Below, one piece after another: positions 12,583-63,570 of a stretch of DNA of 64,000 bases. Source of the DNA: Candidatus Wildermuthbacteria bacterium. Its GTDB lineage: Bacteria > Patescibacteriota > Minisyncoccia > Minisyncoccales > UBA10102. Within the stretch, counting starts at the first letter, position 1. Each line of letters starts with the position of its first letter. The stretch spans positions 1 to 64,000 of the forward strand of contig JACQMR010000014.1 of the NCBI GenBank assembly GCA_016203455.1, given 5' to 3'. The position numbers and the translations under genes are program-made. The notes under the pieces were generated by a model. The model was not told the origin of the DNA, did not search any database, and saw only the letters and a program-made list of their open reading frames with translations.

Positions 12583-12656
12583 GTCCCTGTAGCTCAATTG
12601 GATTGAGCAGTTCCGTCCTAAGGAAAAGATTGGAGGTTCGAGTCCTCCCAGGGACA
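12583..12656 (+). tRNA. tRNA-Arg (CCT)
   Basis: Acceptor GTCCCTG/CAGGGAC; anticodon stem-loop TTCC GTCCTAA GGAA; T-arm GGTTCGAGTCC. Confidence 0.9.
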
Positions 12657-12657
12657 C

Positions 12658-12729
12658 GGGCCTGTAGCTCAACGGCAGAGCACCTGGCTGGCAGTCAGGG
12701 GGTTGTGGGTTCAAATCCCATCGGGTCCA
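12658..12729 (+). tRNA. tRNA-Ala (GGC)
   Basis: Acceptor GGGCCTG/CGGGTCC; loop CTGGCAG; T-arm GGGTTCAAATCCC. Confidence 0.9.
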
Positions 12730-12738
12730 CCGCGTCGT

Positions 12739-12825
12739 GGAGGCGTGCGAGAGCGGTTGAATCGGACAGTTTCGAAAACTGTTATGGCCGTAAGGCCATC
12801 GAAGGTTCGAATCCTTCCGCCTCCG
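12739..12825 (+). tRNA. tRNA-Ser (CGA)
   Basis: Acceptor GGAGGCG/CGCCTCC; loop TTCGAAA; long variable arm; T-arm GGTTCGAATCC. Confidence 0.9.
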
Positions 12826-13093
12826 CCTTCGGTCCGCCGAAGCGGACCTACGGCGTGACGCAGTCCGCCAGTAGGTGTGCGAAGGCGACCTTCGCCACGC
12901 TGAAGCGTGGCTACGGCGTGACGCAGTCCGCAGTAGATACGCGAAAGCGGGCTTCGGTCCGCCGAAGCGGACCTACGGCCTGGCTACGCCAAATGGCTAT
13001 GCCATGGCGAGCGTGACAAAGTCCGCCAGTAGGTGTGCGAAGGCGACCTTCGCCACGCTGAAAACTACACCGCGCTGAAAGCGGCTTCGCAAT
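12826..13093. repeat. Modular GC-rich palindromic repeat, copy C1, directly 3' of tRNA-Ser(CGA)
   Basis: Modules CTTCGGTCCGCCGAAGCGGACCTACGGC, GACGCAGTCCGCCAGTAG, CCTGGCTACGCCAAATGGCTATGCCATGGCGAGC; shared with 48451-48706 and 52668-52888. Confidence 0.85.
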
Positions 13094-26398: not shown

Positions 26399-26448
26399 AA
26401 AACCGCTTAATCCTTAACCCCGTTAAGGTGGGGATAACTAGGCGGTTT
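26399..26448. terminator. Nested inverted repeat between convergent-side ends, containing repeat family A
   Basis: AAAACCGCTTA...TAGGCGGTTTT enclosing CCTTAACCCCGTTAAGG. Confidence 0.6.
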
Positions 26449-29086: not shown

Positions 29087-29131
29087 CTAAACTGTGGATA
29101 ACTTGGTCGGGCCAAGTTATCCACAGTTTAG
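29087..29131. repeat. 20-bp perfect palindrome with inverted DnaA-box sequences
   Basis: CTAAACTGTGGATAACTTGG TCGGG CCAAGTTATCCACAGTTTAG; TTATCCACA in both orientations. Confidence 0.85.
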
Positions 29132-31150: not shown

Positions 31151-31203
31151 CGAACAGCGAGCTACAAACTAGGCAGTTAGCTTGTAGGATTTTCGCACTT
31201 AAT

Positions 31204-31245
31204 CCTTAACCCCGTTAAGGTGTGGATAACTTAAAGGGGTTAAGG
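31204..31245. repeat. Repeat family A palindrome, DnaA box in loop
   Basis: CCTTAACCCCGTTAAG GTGTGGATAA CTTAAAGGGGTTAAGG. Confidence 0.85.
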
Positions 31246-31298
31246 ATGGAAATTTTATGATGGTTGAAACAGGTTTTTTTGCGTGGTAGTATGCGGGT

Positions 31299-35569: not shown

Positions 35570-36037
35570 ATGAAAAAACTATTGGGAGTTTTGTTAGTAG
35601 CAGGTCTTTTTTCTGTAATGGGGTTTTCTAGTGTTTCCGCTACGATAGGTGTGGAATGTTCAAGCGATGCGGGATGTAATAATGGTGAGTTTTGCGATAC
35701 CGGTAGCACGCCAAATGTATGCGCGGCAGAAGTGTCGGGTACTCCCGGCAATCTTAATCAGCCCGCGGATTCTTTGCCGACAACCGGTATTCCCACAAGC
35801 GGTACTGACTTGATTGATCGCATTGCTCTTATCGGCAATTGGATATTCGCCATCTTTTTGGCAATTTCCGTTATTTACATTGTTCTTGCCGCGTTTGAGT
35901 TTGTTACGGGCGCCGGAGATCCGGCAAAGGTGTCCGGAGCCAGGCAAAAACTCATTTATGCCGCGGTTGGAATTGGCGTGGCTCTGCTTGCCGCCGGAAT
36001 TGATGACATTGTAAGAAGCATTGTTGTTGGTAGCTAG
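35570..36037 (+). CDS. VirB2/TrbC-like small membrane protein, paralogue 2
   Basis: Cys-rich CSSDAGCNNGEFCDTGSTPNVC then GNWIFAIFLAISVIYIVLAAFEFVTGAGDPAKVSGARQKLIYAAVGIGVALLAAGIDDIVRSIV. Confidence 0.72.
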   Translation: MKKLLGVLLVAGLFSVMGFSSVSATIGVECSSDAGCNNGEFCDTGSTPNVCAAEVSGTPGNLNQPADSLPTTGIPTSGTDLIDRIALIGNWIFAIFLAISVIYIVLAAFEFVTGAGDPAKVSGARQKLIYAAVGIGVALLAAGIDDIVRSIVVGS

Positions 36038-36073
36038 CGCACGCCCGCAAAGAGAATATACATTTATGCCTTC

Positions 36074-36454
36074 ATGAAGTTCTCTATTATTAACTTTGCT
36101 CTTGGTTTTCTTTTTGCGGGCGTATTTGCTCCTCTCTCTGTGTTTGGAGATACGCCGACAAACCTGCCTCCAACAAATTTTAGATTCCCCTCCATTAGCA
36201 AGCTTCCCGTAACGGGGAGCGATCTTCTTGACAGAATAGGCCTTATTGGCAACTGGATATTCGCCATCTTTTTGGCAATCTCCATCATTTACATTGTCCT
36301 TGCCGCGTTTGAGTTTGTTACGGGAGCCGGAGAGCCGGCAAAGGTTTCCGGCGCCAGAATGAAGCTCATCTATGCCGCGGTTGGAATTGGCGTAGCTCTG
36401 CTTGCCGCCGGAATTGATGACATTGTAAGAAGTATTGTCGTGAATACTCCTTAA
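36074..36454 (+). CDS. VirB2/TrbC-like small membrane protein, paralogue 3
   Basis: Near-identical C-terminal half to paralogue 2; short N-terminal region without Cys cluster. Confidence 0.7.
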   Translation: MKFSIINFALGFLFAGVFAPLSVFGDTPTNLPPTNFRFPSISKLPVTGSDLLDRIGLIGNWIFAIFLAISIIYIVLAAFEFVTGAGEPAKVSGARMKLIYAAVGIGVALLAAGIDDIVRSIVVNTP

Positions 36455-36483
36455 TGGCTGTTTGCATGGAGATGATCATACAT

Positions 36484-37143
36484 ATGGCATATCGTAAAAA
36501 GATAAACGCAGTCATTCTTGGTATTGGTTTGCTTATTTCTTTGGCTGGCATTCCATTTAGTGCATTCGGATTAGCGGAGACGACAAATGTGTTTTTTACG
36601 TCCTGCGAGGTTTCAGATACTACTGCTCTCCCCCAATGCACTGGGGGTCTGGTGTGTGAACCTTTTGAAGGAACATCTCGTTGCCTCTTGGTAATTGGGG
36701 CGTCTTGTGGTACTGATAAACCGGTATGTCAAAGTGGTTCTCGGTGCGTTGTTAAGGAAACTGGAGCTGATCTTGATGAATCCGGGGGGACTACGGCAGA
36801 AAGCGGTGATAATGAATGTCGTGTAGGGAGTTCTGCCGGCCCAGGTCCAGGAGGCGGTTTGCCAGGCGGCAATTTTAGATTGCCAAACGAAACCGAGATC
36901 CCCATCTCTGGCACGGCCCTTTTGGAAAAAGTGGGCGTGATTGGCAACTGGGTTTTCGCCATATTTCTTGCCATTTCTCTTATCTACATTATTCTTGCCG
37001 CGTTTGAGTTTGTTACGGGCGCAGGAGAACCCACCAAAGTTTCAGGAGCAAGGCAAAAACTCATTTATGCCGCGGTTGGAATTGGCGTGGCCCTGCTTGC
37101 CGCCGGAATTGATGACATTGTAAGAAGCATCGTTACCACATAA
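36484..37143 (+). CDS. VirB2/TrbC-like small membrane protein with long Cys-rich ectodomain, paralogue 4
   Basis: CEVSDTTALPQCTGGLVCEPFEGTSRCLLVIGASCGTDKPVCQSGSRC... followed by the conserved C-terminal half. Confidence 0.7.
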   Translation: MAYRKKINAVILGIGLLISLAGIPFSAFGLAETTNVFFTSCEVSDTTALPQCTGGLVCEPFEGTSRCLLVIGASCGTDKPVCQSGSRCVVKETGADLDESGGTTAESGDNECRVGSSAGPGPGGGLPGGNFRLPNETEIPISGTALLEKVGVIGNWVFAIFLAISLIYIILAAFEFVTGAGEPTKVSGARQKLIYAAVGIGVALLAAGIDDIVRSIVTT

Positions 37144-37151
37144 AGAGCCGC

Positions 37152-37619
37152 ATGAAGATGAGAGGTTTATTTGCGATTGTCGCTTTGTTTGGGATATTGA
37201 TGGCGGCCGGGAGCGTTGGTTTGCCGCAATCTGTTTTTGCGGCTGGGCTAGTTACGGAAGGCGGTGAGTGCTCAAGGGCCGCGGGTGCGGTTGATGCGGA
37301 AAAGTGCGCGGAAGGTCTTGTATGCATTGGAGGCACCGATACCGCTCCAGGCGAATGTTTGCCCGAGTTGCCGGAGGGTCCACAAACCCCCGGGGAGGTG
37401 TTAGATACCATTGAGGTTATCGCGAACTGGGTGTTTGCAATTTTTCTTGCCGCATCGGTTATTTTTCTTGTATGGGGGGCGTTTGAATTTATGCTGGCGC
37501 AGGGAGATCCCGCAAAGATTTCCGCCGCCAAACAGCGGCTTCTATACGCGGTTGTGGGCATTGGACTTGCAATGCTCGCGAATGGCGTAGACGATATATT
37601 GAGAAGCATTCTTACCTAA
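37152..37619 (+). CDS. VirB2/TrbC-like small membrane protein, paralogue 5
   Basis: IEVIANWVFAIFLAASVIFLVWGAFEFMLAQGDPAKISAAKQRLLYAVVGIGLAMLANGVDDILRSILT. Confidence 0.7.
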   Translation: MKMRGLFAIVALFGILMAAGSVGLPQSVFAAGLVTEGGECSRAAGAVDAEKCAEGLVCIGGTDTAPGECLPELPEGPQTPGEVLDTIEVIANWVFAIFLAASVIFLVWGAFEFMLAQGDPAKISAAKQRLLYAVVGIGLAMLANGVDDILRSILT

Positions 37620-45901: not shown

Positions 45902-48082
45902 TTATTCCATGTGGAGCCGTTCTCTGTAATGTTGCGTGATTTCTTTGAGCAAGGGATGGCGCGCCAAAGAAATATCGCTGTCCAGAACTGATTTTGCCGC
46001 TTCCCTTGCTTTTGCCACAAGCTTAAGATTGGTGAGATTTGCCATGGCAAAATCGGGAATCCCCCACTGTTTGGTTCCGGCAAAGTCCCCCGGCCCCCTT
46101 AATTGCAGGTCTTTTTCCGCAAGGAGAAATCCGCTGTTTGACTCAACAAGGGCGCGCAGGCGCGCTTGGGTTTGGGCGGATCTGGACTCTGTAAACAAAA
46201 AGCAGTATGACTGATGGTCTGATCTCCCCACCCTTCCCCTAAACTGGTGGAGTTGAGCCAGCCCAAAACGGTCAGCGCCCTCTATCATCATGACGCTCGC
46301 GTTGGGGATATCCACGCCCACTTCAACCACCGAGGTTGAAACCAGTATGTCTGTTTTTCCGCGCTTGAATTTTTTCATAACTTCTTCTTTCTCTCTCGCG
46401 GGCATTTTTCCGTGAAGCATGGCGACGCGCAGTTCCGGAAACACTTCTTTCGCGAGTTTCTCGTATTCTTCTTTCACTGTTTTTATTTCTGTTACTGGTT
46501 GCGTGTTATTTGTGGAGGGTTCTATCCTTGGGCAGATTACAAAAACCTGTCGTCCTTTTTCAACTTCTTTTTTCATGAATACATAAGCGGCGCCGCGGTC
46601 TTTGGGAGCTATGACTTTGGTTTCTATGGGTTTTCTTCCTATTGGGAGTTCGTCTATAACCGTGGGGTCTAAATCCCCGTACAGCGTCATGGCGAGAGTT
46701 CTGGGTATGGGGGTCGCGGTCATGGAAAGAAAATGAGGAGTTAAGATAGTTTGCTTGCCCCGAGCTTTGTCGAGGGGTAGTTTGCTTGCCCCGAGCTTTG
46801 TCGAGGGGTAGTTTGCTTGCCCCGAGCTTTGTCGAGGGGTAGTTTGCAGGTGGGCTCTTTGCCTAACTCCAAAGCGGTGCTGTTCATCTACCACCACAAG
46901 GGCAAGGTTGGAAAATCGCACTTTGTCTTGTATGAGGGCGTGCGTGCCAATGAGGATGTCTATGGCCCCTTCTTTTGCTTTTTGGAGGAGTTTGGCGCGC
47001 GAGATTTCAATGGAATCGTTTGGGAGTTTGGGAGATATGAACAGGTCGGAAGATCCGGTGAGCAGGCCAATGGTCGCCTTGAAAGGAGCAAGAGAGGAGC
47101 CAATGGTTTTGAAATGCTGGCGCGCCAAAATTTCAGTGGGCGCGAGGAACGCGGCCTGAAAGCCGGCTTTCACGCACGCGAGAGCGGCCATGGCCGCCAC
47201 GACGGTTTTGCCTGATCCCACATCGCCCTGCAATATCCGGTTCATGGGCCTGGGTTTTTCCATGTCTTTAAGAATGAGCCACGCGGCTTTTTTTTGGCCG
47301 TCCGTAAGGGTAAACGGGAGTTTCGCGATAAATCGCTTCATCATGTCTACGGACAATGGGATGGACGGCGCTTTGATCTCCGCGAGTTTTTTTCGTTCCG
47401 TGAGTATGAATAATGAAATATAAAAAAGTTCTTCAAATGAAAAGCGTTCTCTCGCGAGATCCGCCTGTTTTTGAGAGTCGGGAAAATGGACTTGCCGCAG
47501 AGCGGCGGCAAACGGCAAGAGATTGCATTCTTTTTGAACGGATTGAGGCAGAGCGTCCTCCAGAGCATTTCCAATCGCGTTAAGAATTGAGTGGATGATA
47601 AATCGGAGCCATTTTGAAGACACTCCCTTTGTCTCCGCGTACACGGGAGCGATACGCCCTATATGAATGGGGCTGGGGCCTTCTTTTTCATGCGCGGGGT
47701 TAGACACAAAAATTCCGGTTTTGTCCCGGAGCACTTTGCCGCAAAGCAATATTTTTTCGCCGGCCCCGAATGTTTGCGCCAGATACGGCTGATTGAGCCA
47801 TACGACGCGCGCGCTTCCGGTCGCGTCAGAAAATATCCCTTCAACCACGGACACCTGCTTTATGAATGTTCTTTTTTCTTGAACATTTGCGATCGTGCCG
47901 GAAAGGCAGAATTCCTTGCCCTCCGTAATCTTTGAAACGGGGGTAATGACGGACAGGTCCCGGTATGTTTTGGGAAAATGAAACAAGAGATCTCGCGCCG
48001 TTAAAATTCCCATGCCTTTCAGCCGTTTTTGATACACCGGCCCCACGCGGGGTACTTCAGATAGAGGAGATGAAAGGTTCAT
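45902..48082 (-). CDS. recG: ATP-dependent DNA helicase RecG
   Basis: LQGDVGSGKTVVAAMAALACVKAGFQAAFLAPTEILARQH, DEQHRFGVRQRA, SMTATPIPRTLAMTLYGDLD. Confidence 0.94.
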   Translation of the reverse strand: MNLSSPLSEVPRVGPVYQKRLKGMGILTARDLLFHFPKTYRDLSVITPVSKITEGKEFCLSGTIANVQEKRTFIKQVSVVEGIFSDATGSARVVWLNQPYLAQTFGAGEKILLCGKVLRDKTGIFVSNPAHEKEGPSPIHIGRIAPVYAETKGVSSKWLRFIIHSILNAIGNALEDALPQSVQKECNLLPFAAALRQVHFPDSQKQADLARERFSFEELFYISLFILTERKKLAEIKAPSIPLSVDMMKRFIAKLPFTLTDGQKKAAWLILKDMEKPRPMNRILQGDVGSGKTVVAAMAALACVKAGFQAAFLAPTEILARQHFKTIGSSLAPFKATIGLLTGSSDLFISPKLPNDSIEISRAKLLQKAKEGAIDILIGTHALIQDKVRFSNLALVVVDEQHRFGVRQRAHLQTTPRQSSGQANYPSTKLGASKLPLDKARGKQTILTPHFLSMTATPIPRTLAMTLYGDLDPTVIDELPIGRKPIETKVIAPKDRGAAYVFMKKEVEKGRQVFVICPRIEPSTNNTQPVTEIKTVKEEYEKLAKEVFPELRVAMLHGKMPAREKEEVMKKFKRGKTDILVSTSVVEVGVDIPNASVMMIEGADRFGLAQLHQFRGRVGRSDHQSYCFLFTESRSAQTQARLRALVESNSGFLLAEKDLQLRGPGDFAGTKQWGIPDFAMANLTNLKLVAKAREAAKSVLDSDISLARHPLLKEITQHYRERLHME
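46747..46847. repeat. Three tandem 31-bp palindromic units plus a partial fourth inside recG
   Basis: (TAGTTTGCTTGCCCCGAGCTTTGTCGAGGGG)x3 then TAGTTTGC. Confidence 0.95.
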
Positions 48083-48330: not shown

Positions 48331-48363
48331 TCCGCTCTTGTTGCACAAGAGCATTATAGTAAT

Positions 48364-48450
48364 GGAGAGGTGGCTGAGAGGCCGAAAGCGGCACGCTGCT
48401 AATGTGTTAGGGGAGAAATCCCCTCGTGGGTTCGAATCCCACCCTCTCCG
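48364..48450 (+). tRNA. tRNA-Ser (GCT)
   Basis: Acceptor GGAGAGG/CCTCTCC; loop CTGCTAA; long variable arm. Confidence 0.9.
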
Positions 48451-48706
48451 CCTTCGCTCGCCGAAGCGGCGAGCTACGGCGGACGCAGTCCGCCAGTAGA
48501 TCGTCGCGAAGGCGGGCTTCGGCCTGGCTACGCCAAATGGCTATGCCATGGCGAGCGGACGCAGTCCGCTAGAAGCCCCGAACTTTGCGAAGGCGGGCTT
48601 CGCCACGCCGAAGCGACGAGCTACGGCCTGGCTACGCCAAATGGCTATGCCATGGCGAGCGGACGCAGTCCGCCAGTAGATCGTCGCGAAGGAGAGATTC
48701 GTAAAA
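48451..48706. repeat. Modular GC-rich palindromic repeat, copy C2, directly 3' of tRNA-Ser(GCT)
   Basis: CTTCGCTCGCCGAAGCGGCGAGCTACGGCGGACGCAGTCCGCCAGTAGATCGTCGCGAAGG...CCTGGCTACGCCAAATGGCTATGCCATGGCGAGC (module appears twice). Confidence 0.88.
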
Positions 48707-52571: not shown

Positions 52572-52580
52572 TTAATGAAG

Positions 52581-52667
52581 GGAGGGGTGCCTGAGTGGTT
52601 GAAAGGGACAGTCTTGAAAACTGTTAGGGGCGCAAGTTCCTCGTGAGTTCGAATCTCACCCCCTCCG
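52581..52667 (+). tRNA. tRNA-Ser (TGA)
   Basis: Acceptor GGAGGGG/CCCCTCC; ACAGT CTTGAAA ACTGT; long variable arm. Confidence 0.9.
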
Positions 52668-52888
52668 CCTTTGCTCGCCGAAGCGGCGAGCTACGGCGGA
52701 CGCAGTCCGCCAGTAGATCGTCGCGAAGGCGGGCTTCGCCCGCCGAAGCAAAGCTTCGTCGGGCTTCGGCCTGGCTACGCCAAATGGCTATGCCATGGCG
52801 AGCGTGACGCAGTCCGCAGTAGATACGCGAAGGCGGGCTTCGCCATGCTGAAAGCTACGCCCTGCTGAAAGCGGGCTTCGCCGATCTT
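52668..52888. repeat. Modular GC-rich palindromic repeat, copy C3, directly 3' of tRNA-Ser(TGA)
   Basis: TTTGCTCGCCGAAGCGGCGAGCTACGGCGGACGCAGTCCGCCAGTAGATCGTCGCGAAGGCGGGCTTCG... nearly identical start to C2. Confidence 0.88.
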
Positions 52889-61882: not shown

Positions 61883-62368
61883 ATGATAAAATTCAAGCAA
61901 AAAGGTTTTACGCTTATTGAGTTATTGGTGGTTATTGCCATTATCGGTATTTTGGCGGGAATCGTGCTGGTATCTTTGGGAGGCGCGAGAGCAAATGCCA
62001 GAGACGCCAGAAGACAGTCAGACATGAGGCAGATAAATACCGCCATGGAATTGTGCTATCAGGATGCCGCCTGCGAGGGTTCTGCGGCAGACGAATATCC
62101 TATTGCCGATGTTACGGGGACTGGCATTGGAACATATTTGGCAACTGTGCCTACTGACCCGTCCGGTGATGTTTACACATGGATTGATAACAGCGCTGAC
62201 GATCAGAGCTATTGTATTTTCGCCATCTTGGAAGCAAACGCTCCCGCAGATACGGTAACTATTATTACCGCGGGGCCTGGTGGCGTGAAGCAGAAAGATG
62301 TTGCGGACACCGCGGCAGATATCGATGTGCCCGATGTGTTGCCAACTCTTGCAAACTGCACGGATTAG
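61883..62368 (+). CDS. Type IV prepilin
   Basis: KQKGFTLIELLVVIAIIGILAGIVLVSLGGARANARDARRQSD. Confidence 0.92.
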   Translation: MIKFKQKGFTLIELLVVIAIIGILAGIVLVSLGGARANARDARRQSDMRQINTAMELCYQDAACEGSAADEYPIADVTGTGIGTYLATVPTDPSGDVYTWIDNSADDQSYCIFAILEANAPADTVTIITAGPGGVKQKDVADTAADIDVPDVLPTLANCTD

Positions 62369-62377
62369 TTGTGTCTG

Positions 62378-62454
62378 CCTTAACTGAGTTAAGGATTTAG
62401 TGAAACTTAGCCGAGCTAAGTTGTATAAAAGCAGAAACTTAGTTTAACTAAGTT
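62378..62454. repeat. Cluster of three short palindromes (family B)
   Basis: CCTTAACTGAGTTAAGG; AACTTAG CCGAG CTAAGTT; AACTTAGTTTAACTAAGTT. Confidence 0.8.
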
Positions 62455-62520
62455 GTAGCCGAGCGGTTTCTATATCGCGAGTTCTAAACCGGGTTTGGAT
62501 TTTCCAAGCCCGGTTTAGTT

Positions 62521-62572
62521 AATTTCCTTAACCCCGTTAAGTTATCCACACCTTAACGGGGTTAAGGAAATT
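62521..62572. repeat. Repeat family A perfect 21-bp stem palindrome, DnaA box in loop
   Basis: AATTTCCTTAACCCCGTTAAG TTATCCACAC CTTAACGGGGTTAAGGAAATT. Confidence 0.92.
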
Positions 62573-62643
62573 TTGAAATTGTTTTGGTTATTCGTTATTT
62601 GTTTATAGTTATTTGTTGCTCACGCCGTGGTATAGTTAAAAAA

Positions 62644-63570
62644 ATGGAATATATTATTGTAGGAACGGTGTTTTTGTTTGGTCTTGCCGCAGGGAGTTTT
62701 TTGAACGCGTTTTTGTACAGAATGGCGCTGGCGGACGGGTTAGAAAATGGCCCGAAAGACGCAGAAACGAGCATATCAAAAGGCAGATCGTATTGTCCCA
62801 AGTGCGGGCACAAGCTTTCCTGGCAAAACCTTATTCCCCTTGTAAGTTTTGTTTTGCTGGGCGGGAAATGCGGACATTGCAAAAAACCAGTTTCTTTTCA
62901 GTACCCTTTGGTTGAATTGGCCGTTGGCCTGGTATTCCTGCTTGCTTGGTATCTTGCCGCTTCCGGTGAAGTTATCCACACCTTAACGGGGTTAAGGATT
63001 GGGTATTTGGCGGCTGTGGGGAGTTTGCTGATTGGGATTTTTGTCTATGATTTGAAGCACTTTATTATTCCCGATAAGCTTATTTTCTCCGCGATTGGCC
63101 TGGCAGTACTTTGGAGAATCTTTGAGTTTTTGTTTGCCCTGACCAGCGTGGAAGGGTGGCTTGAACCCTGGGATTTCATTAGAAATTTTGAATTAGGAAT
63201 TAGAAATTCCGCCCTTTTTATAAATCCATTGGCAAGCGCTTTGGGAGCGTCCTTTTTCTTTCTTTCTATCTATGTTTTGTCAAAAGGGCGGGCTATGGGC
63301 TTTGGCGATGTAAAGCTGGCGTTTTTCATGGGTCTGTTTTTGGGCTGGCCGAATATCCTTGTCGCTTTATTTTTTGCCTTTTTCTTGGGCGCTGTGGCCG
63401 GTGTTTTTCTGATACTGCAAAAAAAGAAGGGCTGGAGATCGCAAGTTCCTTTTGGCCCGTTTCTCGTAGCGGGCGTTCTTTTCGCGCTGCTGTTTGGGGA
63501 TACACTCGCGCGTTTATATCTTTCCTTGATTGGCTGGCAGGTGTATAATGATGTAATAATAATTTTATAA
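62644..63570 (+). CDS. pilD: Prepilin peptidase
   Basis: ATG at 62644; GSFLNAFLYRMA, SYCPKCGHKLSWQNLIPLVSFVLLGGKCGHCKKPVSFQYPLVE, GFGDVKLAFFMGLFLGW. Confidence 0.92.
   Translation: MEYIIVGTVFLFGLAAGSFLNAFLYRMALADGLENGPKDAETSISKGRSYCPKCGHKLSWQNLIPLVSFVLLGGKCGHCKKPVSFQYPLVELAVGLVFLLAWYLAASGEVIHTLTGLRIGYLAAVGSLLIGIFVYDLKHFIIPDKLIFSAIGLAVLWRIFEFLFALTSVEGWLEPWDFIRNFELGIRNSALFINPLASALGASFFFLSIYVLSKGRAMGFGDVKLAFFMGLFLGWPNILVALFFAFFLGAVAGVFLILQKKKGWRSQVPFGPFLVAGVLFALLFGDTLARLYLSLIGWQVYNDVIIIL

Follow-up and report, generated by a model that had tools for sequence, protein, structure and literature searches.

The stretch of DNA we analysed, referred to here as the window, comprises 64,000 nucleotides of contig 9 of a Candidatus Wildermuthbacteria assembly (519 kb in 15 contigs, 83% complete; G000 in our numbering of genomes). 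Near its end, at 62521-62572, lies an exact 21-nt inverted repeat enclosing the 10-nt loop TTATCCACAC (62542-62551). The initial annotation had described a perfect 21-bp palindrome that presents a consensus DnaA box in its loop, and the description holds to the letter: the arm at 62521-62541 is the exact reverse complement of the one at 62552-62572. Since each arm contains a 15-bp palindrome in its own right, the element amounts to two REP-like units facing each other, in the arrangement 15 + 10 + 15. The element, its other copies in the window and the neighbouring gene are as follows.

62521-62541, plus strand: left arm, with an inner stretch of 15 nt, CTTAACCCCGTTAAG (62527-62541), that is palindromic in itself, a REP-like unit
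62542-62551, plus strand: 10-nt loop or spacer, with the exact DnaA-box consensus TTATCCACA at 62542-62550
62552-62572, plus strand: right arm, the reverse complement of the left
62584-63570, plus strand: prepilin peptidase gene (Pfam A24_N_bact, Peptidase_A24), containing the in-frame copy at 62969-63000
62969-63000, plus strand: single-arm copy, AAGTTATCCACAC + CTTAACGGGGTTAAGG + ATT, in frame within the prepilin peptidase gene
62378-62394, no strand assigned: lone arm CCTTAACTGAGTTAAGG, without a box
62406-62420, no strand assigned: lone arm CTTAGCCGAGCTAAG, without a box
62438-62452, no strand assigned: lone arm CTTAGTTTAACTAAG, without a box
31201-31247, minus strand: second complete copy in inverted orientation, box at 31221-31229 (minus), between divergent genes
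29089-29129, no strand assigned: box-arm-box composite, boxes at 29093-29101 (minus) and 29117-29125 (plus) with the arm CTTGGTCGGGCCAAG (29102-29116) between them
26409-26440, minus strand: single-arm copy, box variant TTATCCCCA at 26429-26437 (minus)

Two of these copies had been noted before. The same architecture was said to recur in the other orientation at 31204-31245, where there is indeed a second copy with one stem mismatch, and a degenerate copy was placed at 26412-26438, which proves to be a single arm with the box-like TTATCCCCA. Two others had been overlooked, the box plus right arm at 62969-63000 and the composite at 29089-29125. The window also holds repeats of other kinds. Mosaic repeats (GCGGACGCAGTCCGCCAGTAG..., GGCCTGGCTACGCCAAATGGCTATGCCATGGCGAGC) follow the tRNA genes and are common to three tRNA loci (12583-13062, 48361-48701 and 52578-52881), a 31-bp unit, TAGTTTGCTTGCCCCGAGCTTTGTCGAGGGG, stands in three exact tandem copies at 46747-46847, and four 238-nt direct repeats, 60-85% identical, run across successive short open frames at 35790-37615.

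As single-stranded DNA, 62521-62572 folds at -21.4 kcal/mol (z = -9.8; none of 200 shuffles equalled it), and the folding is strong in both strands. A separate terminator-like hairpin, CTAAACCGGGTTTGG-ATTTT-CCAAGCCCGGTTTAG, lies directly upstream at 62484-62518. As RNA, the element itself would form a very stable hairpin of -30.6 kcal/mol, and several copies of the family sit 10-60 bp after stop codons, both of which would suit a bidirectional transcription terminator or an mRNA-stabilizing hairpin. The initial annotation had put terminator function forward for testing. A scan of 62300-63100, covering loops of 3-8 nt only, calls the hairpin at 62484-62518 and not the one at 62521-62572; a terminator would not be expected to conserve its loop; and copies lie between divergent genes and inside the genes for KsgA, ArgS and prepilin peptidase. 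Because of where those copies lie, termination is unlikely to be the main role, and we regard it as very improbable.

How far does the family extend in G000? Our genome-wide counts there come from pattern searches, and the scans blind to the loop from sampled stretches, some of them picked for containing boxes. The genome-wide count of stem family A that the initial annotation had proposed gives about 16 near-identical loci of the stem CCTTAAC-SSS-GTTAAGG, mostly as inverted pairs around TTATYCACA. Further stem families (CTTGGTCGGGCCAAG, CTTAGTCTGCCTTAG, CTTATCCTGCCTTAG) surround the same loop. Most copies are intergenic, some between divergent genes, and others fall within genes; with its roughly 16 loci, family A is thus repetitive, dispersed and mainly extragenic, as a REPIN should be. 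TTATCCACA itself occurs 33 times (19 + 14) genome-wide, against none for its reversed control, and it outnumbers its control in nearly every one of the family's 25 genomes, G007 being the exception. Inverted pairs of self-palindromic arms came up in 42 rows from real sequence (some elements counted twice) and in one from 810 kb of Markov-shuffled sequence. In 244 kb of G000, 17 of 30 TTATYCACA sites adjoin a palindromic 15-mer, compared with 3% of random positions. Had the loop varied freely among copies, its match to the DnaA box would have looked incidental, as the annotation recognized; in the loop-blind scan of the same 244 kb, the eleven double-arm elements all had TTATYCACA or, in one case, GTATCCACA. 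Single-arm copies in G000 retain the box beside the arm.

Several familiar kinds of repeat were considered and set aside. A DNA uptake signal would call for hundreds of copies where there are tens. The GTTAAG/CTTAAC of the stem resembles the core sites of attC in integrons but, judged by eye, fails at the RYYYAAC end. Rfam matches only tRNAs in the window and nothing at eight element or box loci. Nor is this a classic REP: the conserved GTAG/CGTC at the foot of the hairpin is absent, the outer bases vary (AT, AAA, TG) and the box lies inside.

The architecture is family-wide, arm(15)-loop(10)-arm(15), with every arm a palindrome of the form CTNNN-NNNNN-NNNAG. Among 93 elements found through their loops, both arms are self-palindromic in 59, and these hold 61 different arm sequences, spread over about a dozen related genera, that carry the DnaA-box loop. 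The two arms pair with each other at 14-15 of 15 positions in 41 of the 59 two-arm elements, giving the hairpin doublet that characterizes REPINs. Changes are compensatory within arms (TA/AT/CG at pair 3-13; GC/AT/CG at pair 5-11) and also between the two arms. The loop is therefore the part conserved across genera whose self-palindromic arms are quite different. The 150 listed sites fitting AGTTATNCNCANCT divide into 105 with TTATCCACA, 16 with TTATTCACA, 21 with TTATCCCCA and 8 others; TTATYCACA accounts for 121 of the 150. Identical arms also surround other loops in the relatives, such as AGCT, AGTC, GATTC and AAAATC, and the G002 cases, which include AGCT, AGTC, AACT and GATTC, indicate that loop and arms are modular.

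The elements are spread within genomes of one Parcubacteria family, the one that holds Ca. Wildermuthbacteria. When a strict pattern was run against 380 genomes of the phylum, matches came from G000 and a single further genome. The pattern hit 20 stretches in 257 Gb of sequence from GTDB, 17 of them in Patescibacteria-type or other MAGs (Ca. Wildermuthbacteria, Parcubacteria groundwater MAGs and other MAGs); the remaining three, in Neobacillus, Mucilaginibacter and Colwellia, are isolated and chance-like, their flanks forming no element.

A transposase partner emerges from the relatives. Genes of the Y1_Tnp (RAYT) type are present in 16 of the 25 family genomes; neither a Y1_Tnp search nor one using a related protein as query detected any in G000, an assembly 83% complete. 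We examined 48 RAYT-like genes, and six, from five genomes in three genera, lie less than 500 bp from a box element. Both RAYT genes of G018 are flanked on the two sides, by elements 43 and 88 bp upstream and 28 and 83 bp downstream, and one-sided elements lie 38-86 bp away in G003, G014 and G017 and 410 bp away in G004. Elements thus flank what would be their cognate RAYT gene in five relatives, as in REPIN systems; G000 itself has no RAYT. In a maximum-likelihood tree of 47 of these proteins all six box-flanked RAYTs fall within a single seven-member clade, a clustering that needs two changes (none of 500 label shuffles came as low), and the seventh member has the same kind of arms ahead of its gene around a GCGC loop. 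Three members score above the Pfam Y1_Tnp cut-off, and the flanking proteins carry HFH and Y..YFN.KY motifs, in keeping with the HUH motif and catalytic Tyr region of a Y1 transposase. Their matches to the NCBIfam REP transposase model fall far below its cut-off, and comparing the RAYT with PDB sequences gave no match.

Copy number follows the clade. Genomes that encode it hold 11-21 elements, and the others 0-5, except G011 (9), G002 (18) and G000 (21); leaving G000 out, the difference gives a Mann-Whitney p of 0.0004, in a test that shared ancestry among these related genomes keeps from being fully independent. Within one genus, two genomes with the clade have 21 and 13 elements and two without any near member have 2 and 1. 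G011 has its nine without a RAYT, and in G002 the only RAYT is a sister one that contains an internal stop. The idea that any RAYT could be the partner was rejected: other RAYT clades have their own box-less, short-loop (CCG/CGG) hairpins, and a degenerate Y1 relative in G002 (L248, G002:C1:359508-360203) has arm pairs around 4-nt loops on its flanks, but these are mostly missing at its orthologues. L248 falls below Pfam detection in G002, where its HUH motif reads RYH, the first His being lost (it is HYH in G014). Its orthologues are conserved in G001, G004, G005, G008, G014, G016 and G024, and it may be a domesticated form.

We consider it likely that these are miniature mobile elements of a REPIN-RAYT family with a DnaA-box spacer, two inverted REP-like 15-mers around a 10-nt TTATYCACAN. 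Their movement would most likely be driven in trans by the one clade of RAYT (TnpA-REP, Y1/HUH) transposases that has these elements beside its genes. Single-stranded at the replication fork, one strand would fold into a long hairpin or two small arm hairpins, the RAYT would bind the folded element and cut it at the foot of the hairpin, and the cut element would be pasted elsewhere. The stems would then drift and be homogenized within each genome, with the spacer retained.

For the spacer itself there are two candidate roles: a DnaA site that serves the element or its host, or a recognition tag of the RAYT that coincides with a DnaA box. TTATCCACA fits the DnaA consensus TTWTNCACA (PMC12371093) exactly. 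G000 encodes a canonical DnaA (Pfam DnaA_N, Bac_DnaA, Bac_DnaA_C), and just upstream of its gene stands TTATCCACAGGTTATCCACA, with two TTATCCACA boxes. In addition, TTATCCACA directly adjoins the hexamer TTGACA, accompanied by an AT-rich, -10-like stretch, at four loci, three in G000 (L016 at 1503, L060 at 1501, L067 at 1501) and one at L153 (5618). Taken together, these lead us to infer that TTATCCACA is very probably recognized by this lineage's DnaA. At L016, L060 and L153 the next frame encodes a tiny lysine-rich peptide (for example MPAKKKKKAAAKKKKK), and such loci are possibly DnaA-controlled promoters of small basic peptides. The roughly 110 bp preceding ksgA (L182, G000:C3:6419-6525) also contain five DnaA-box-like sites: two TTATCCACA, TTGTCCACA and two TTATTCACA.

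With such a DnaA at hand, the host might maintain the dispersed hairpins as DnaA-binding sites for titration or regulation, the stems merely presenting the box; this is compatible with mobility. The exact consensus is kept across genera through complete replacement of the stem, TTATCCACA is over-represented in the majority of the family's 25 genomes, the box stands just upstream of dnaA, and the variant TTATTCACA still fits TTWTNCACA. Dispersed copies mostly keep the exact box, which is gone from the old copies inside ksgA. Against this, 23 of 150 loops (about 15%) have C at position 7, outside the consensus of PMC12371093, as in TTATCCCCA, and related species with 0-2 elements manage without them. 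The distribution relative to the origin, which the initial annotation had suggested checking, speaks against it too. The 18 elements of G002, a complete relative, are uniform in their distance from dnaA (KS p = 0.59, taking oriC to be at dnaA) and show no bias in direction, 7 of 18 being oriented with the fork, whereas E. coli DnaA boxes cluster near oriC (PMC12371093). In that one genome, then, there is no clustering or enrichment of boxes near the origin of the kind expected of datA-like titration. We find host maintenance rather unlikely.

An exact strong box kept through changing stems nevertheless argues for constraint on the loop, and the C at position 7 together with the lack of origin bias means that the loop may be the tag of the RAYT. 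The spacer would then serve as a recognition or guide tag, the counterpart of GTAG, and its match to the DnaA box would be coincidental; this too is compatible with a mobile element. TTATCCCCA occurs in 4 of 10 RAYT-adjacent copies (Fisher p = 0.05), as if the neighbourhood of the RAYT keeps something that is not strictly the DnaA consensus. The conserved part of REPs is likewise a tag 5' of the hairpin, with stems that vary (PMC8266576), and in G000 the box stays beside the arm even when only one arm is left. But that a 9-nt tag should coincide by chance with the exact strong DnaA consensus is improbable, of the order of 1e-5 before allowing for the choice of motif, and many elements in the relatives have the same arms around other loops (AGCT, GATTC, AAAATC), which indicates that elements can spread without the box. 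We take a RAYT tag to be a real possibility that falls short of probable. A fuller role for DnaA can be imagined within the mobile reading: DnaA would bind the spacer box and open or mark the DNA, making it single-stranded for the RAYT, or else the elements would spread sites for DnaA, tuning initiation in a genome of some 0.6 Mb. Homogenization within the genome would turn over the arms, and selection would hold the box. We offer this as a tentative proposal. The initial annotation had suggested either selection or a mobile family carrying DnaA sites. The mobile half is well supported by dispersed near-identical copies, copies in frame within genes, a flanked RAYT clade and a copy number that follows it; for selection the evidence points both ways, the loop being kept across differing stems yet reading TTATCCCCA about 15% of the time, with no bias toward the origin.

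Some copies lie within genes. G000 has them in frame within KsgA, ArgS, prepilin peptidase and a 470-aa protein of no Pfam family. In KsgA, hairpins of this architecture occupy one site in six genera with six different stems, and their loops have decayed (GTATCCACAC, TTTTCCACAC, TTATCCCCAG, TTTCCCCCGC, TTTCCTAGAA, GATTTCTTTC); none of the six retains the exact box. In ArgS, the loop TTATTCACAC is common to G000, G002, G004 and G006 at one site with four different stems, which largely match each host genome's own type; the G000 arms there are of two types. The simplest reading is that these sites represent an old shared insertion whose arms would have been rewritten through homogenization within each genome, the alternative being repeated insertion at a hot spot. 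Each of the two genes (L222-L245 for ArgS, L156-L178 for KsgA) has one such hot spot, where most of the family's genera carry in-frame palindromes and microrepeats, including AAATTCC, AATTCG and hairpins. Might the added peptide itself be what is maintained, in the manner of Rickettsia palindromic elements? SLTPLSYPHLNGVKD, or a close variant of it, is present in both KsgA and a further protein, and a related peptide is found in ArgS. Orthologous sites do not share a conserved peptide, however, the inserts lie in hypervariable loops and most copies are intergenic, and we give this reading very little credence. With their stems differing across genera, the in-frame insertions in ksgA and argS offer a natural record of palindrome rewriting over time.

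A search of the open-access literature, which leaves out most subscription journals, turned up neither REP elements with DnaA-box spacers nor RAYTs in Parcubacteria. Our reading would extend REPIN-RAYT systems to bacteria of the candidate phyla, with a spacer that matches an initiator site and is kept as the stems are replaced. A link between a domesticated transposase, the initiation of replication and the spread of repeats becomes directly testable.

The nearest known system is REPIN-RAYT of Pseudomonas fluorescens SBW25 (PMC3116915), in which two inverted short palindromic units likewise form one dispersed hairpin element, found beside one cognate RAYT gene family with one element type per RAYT clade. 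The spacer is the less conserved part of those REPINs (PMC3116915); here it is fixed at 10 nt between 15-nt arms and is conserved as a DnaA box while the arms differ between genera. Copies are also far fewer than in SBW25, about 10-20. Linkers of some E. coli BIMEs are binding sites for a host DNA protein, IHF for example. Enterobacterial REP/BIME elements and TnpA-REP (PMC8266576) share the inverted palindromic units with a linker and the Y1/HUH REP transposase. Our elements differ in having no GTAG tag and a linker that is a DnaA box rather than an IHF site. Rickettsia palindromic elements are not known to have a RAYT partner. Those palindromes, too, are kept in frame within housekeeping genes (PMC10969869), but they are about 150 bp long, whereas the elements here are 40-46 bp and mostly intergenic. 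MITEs that carry host sites, such as Correia elements with their IHF sites (PMC10969869), are similarly small, non-autonomous spreaders of a site for a host DNA-binding protein; the host protein, the ends and the type of transposase are all different here. Set beside these systems, REP/REPIN elements that are specific to a lineage of Parcubacteria and combine a DnaA-box spacer with a cognate RAYT clade represent a new variant, one whose sequence and gene context strongly suggest mobility by the RAYT.
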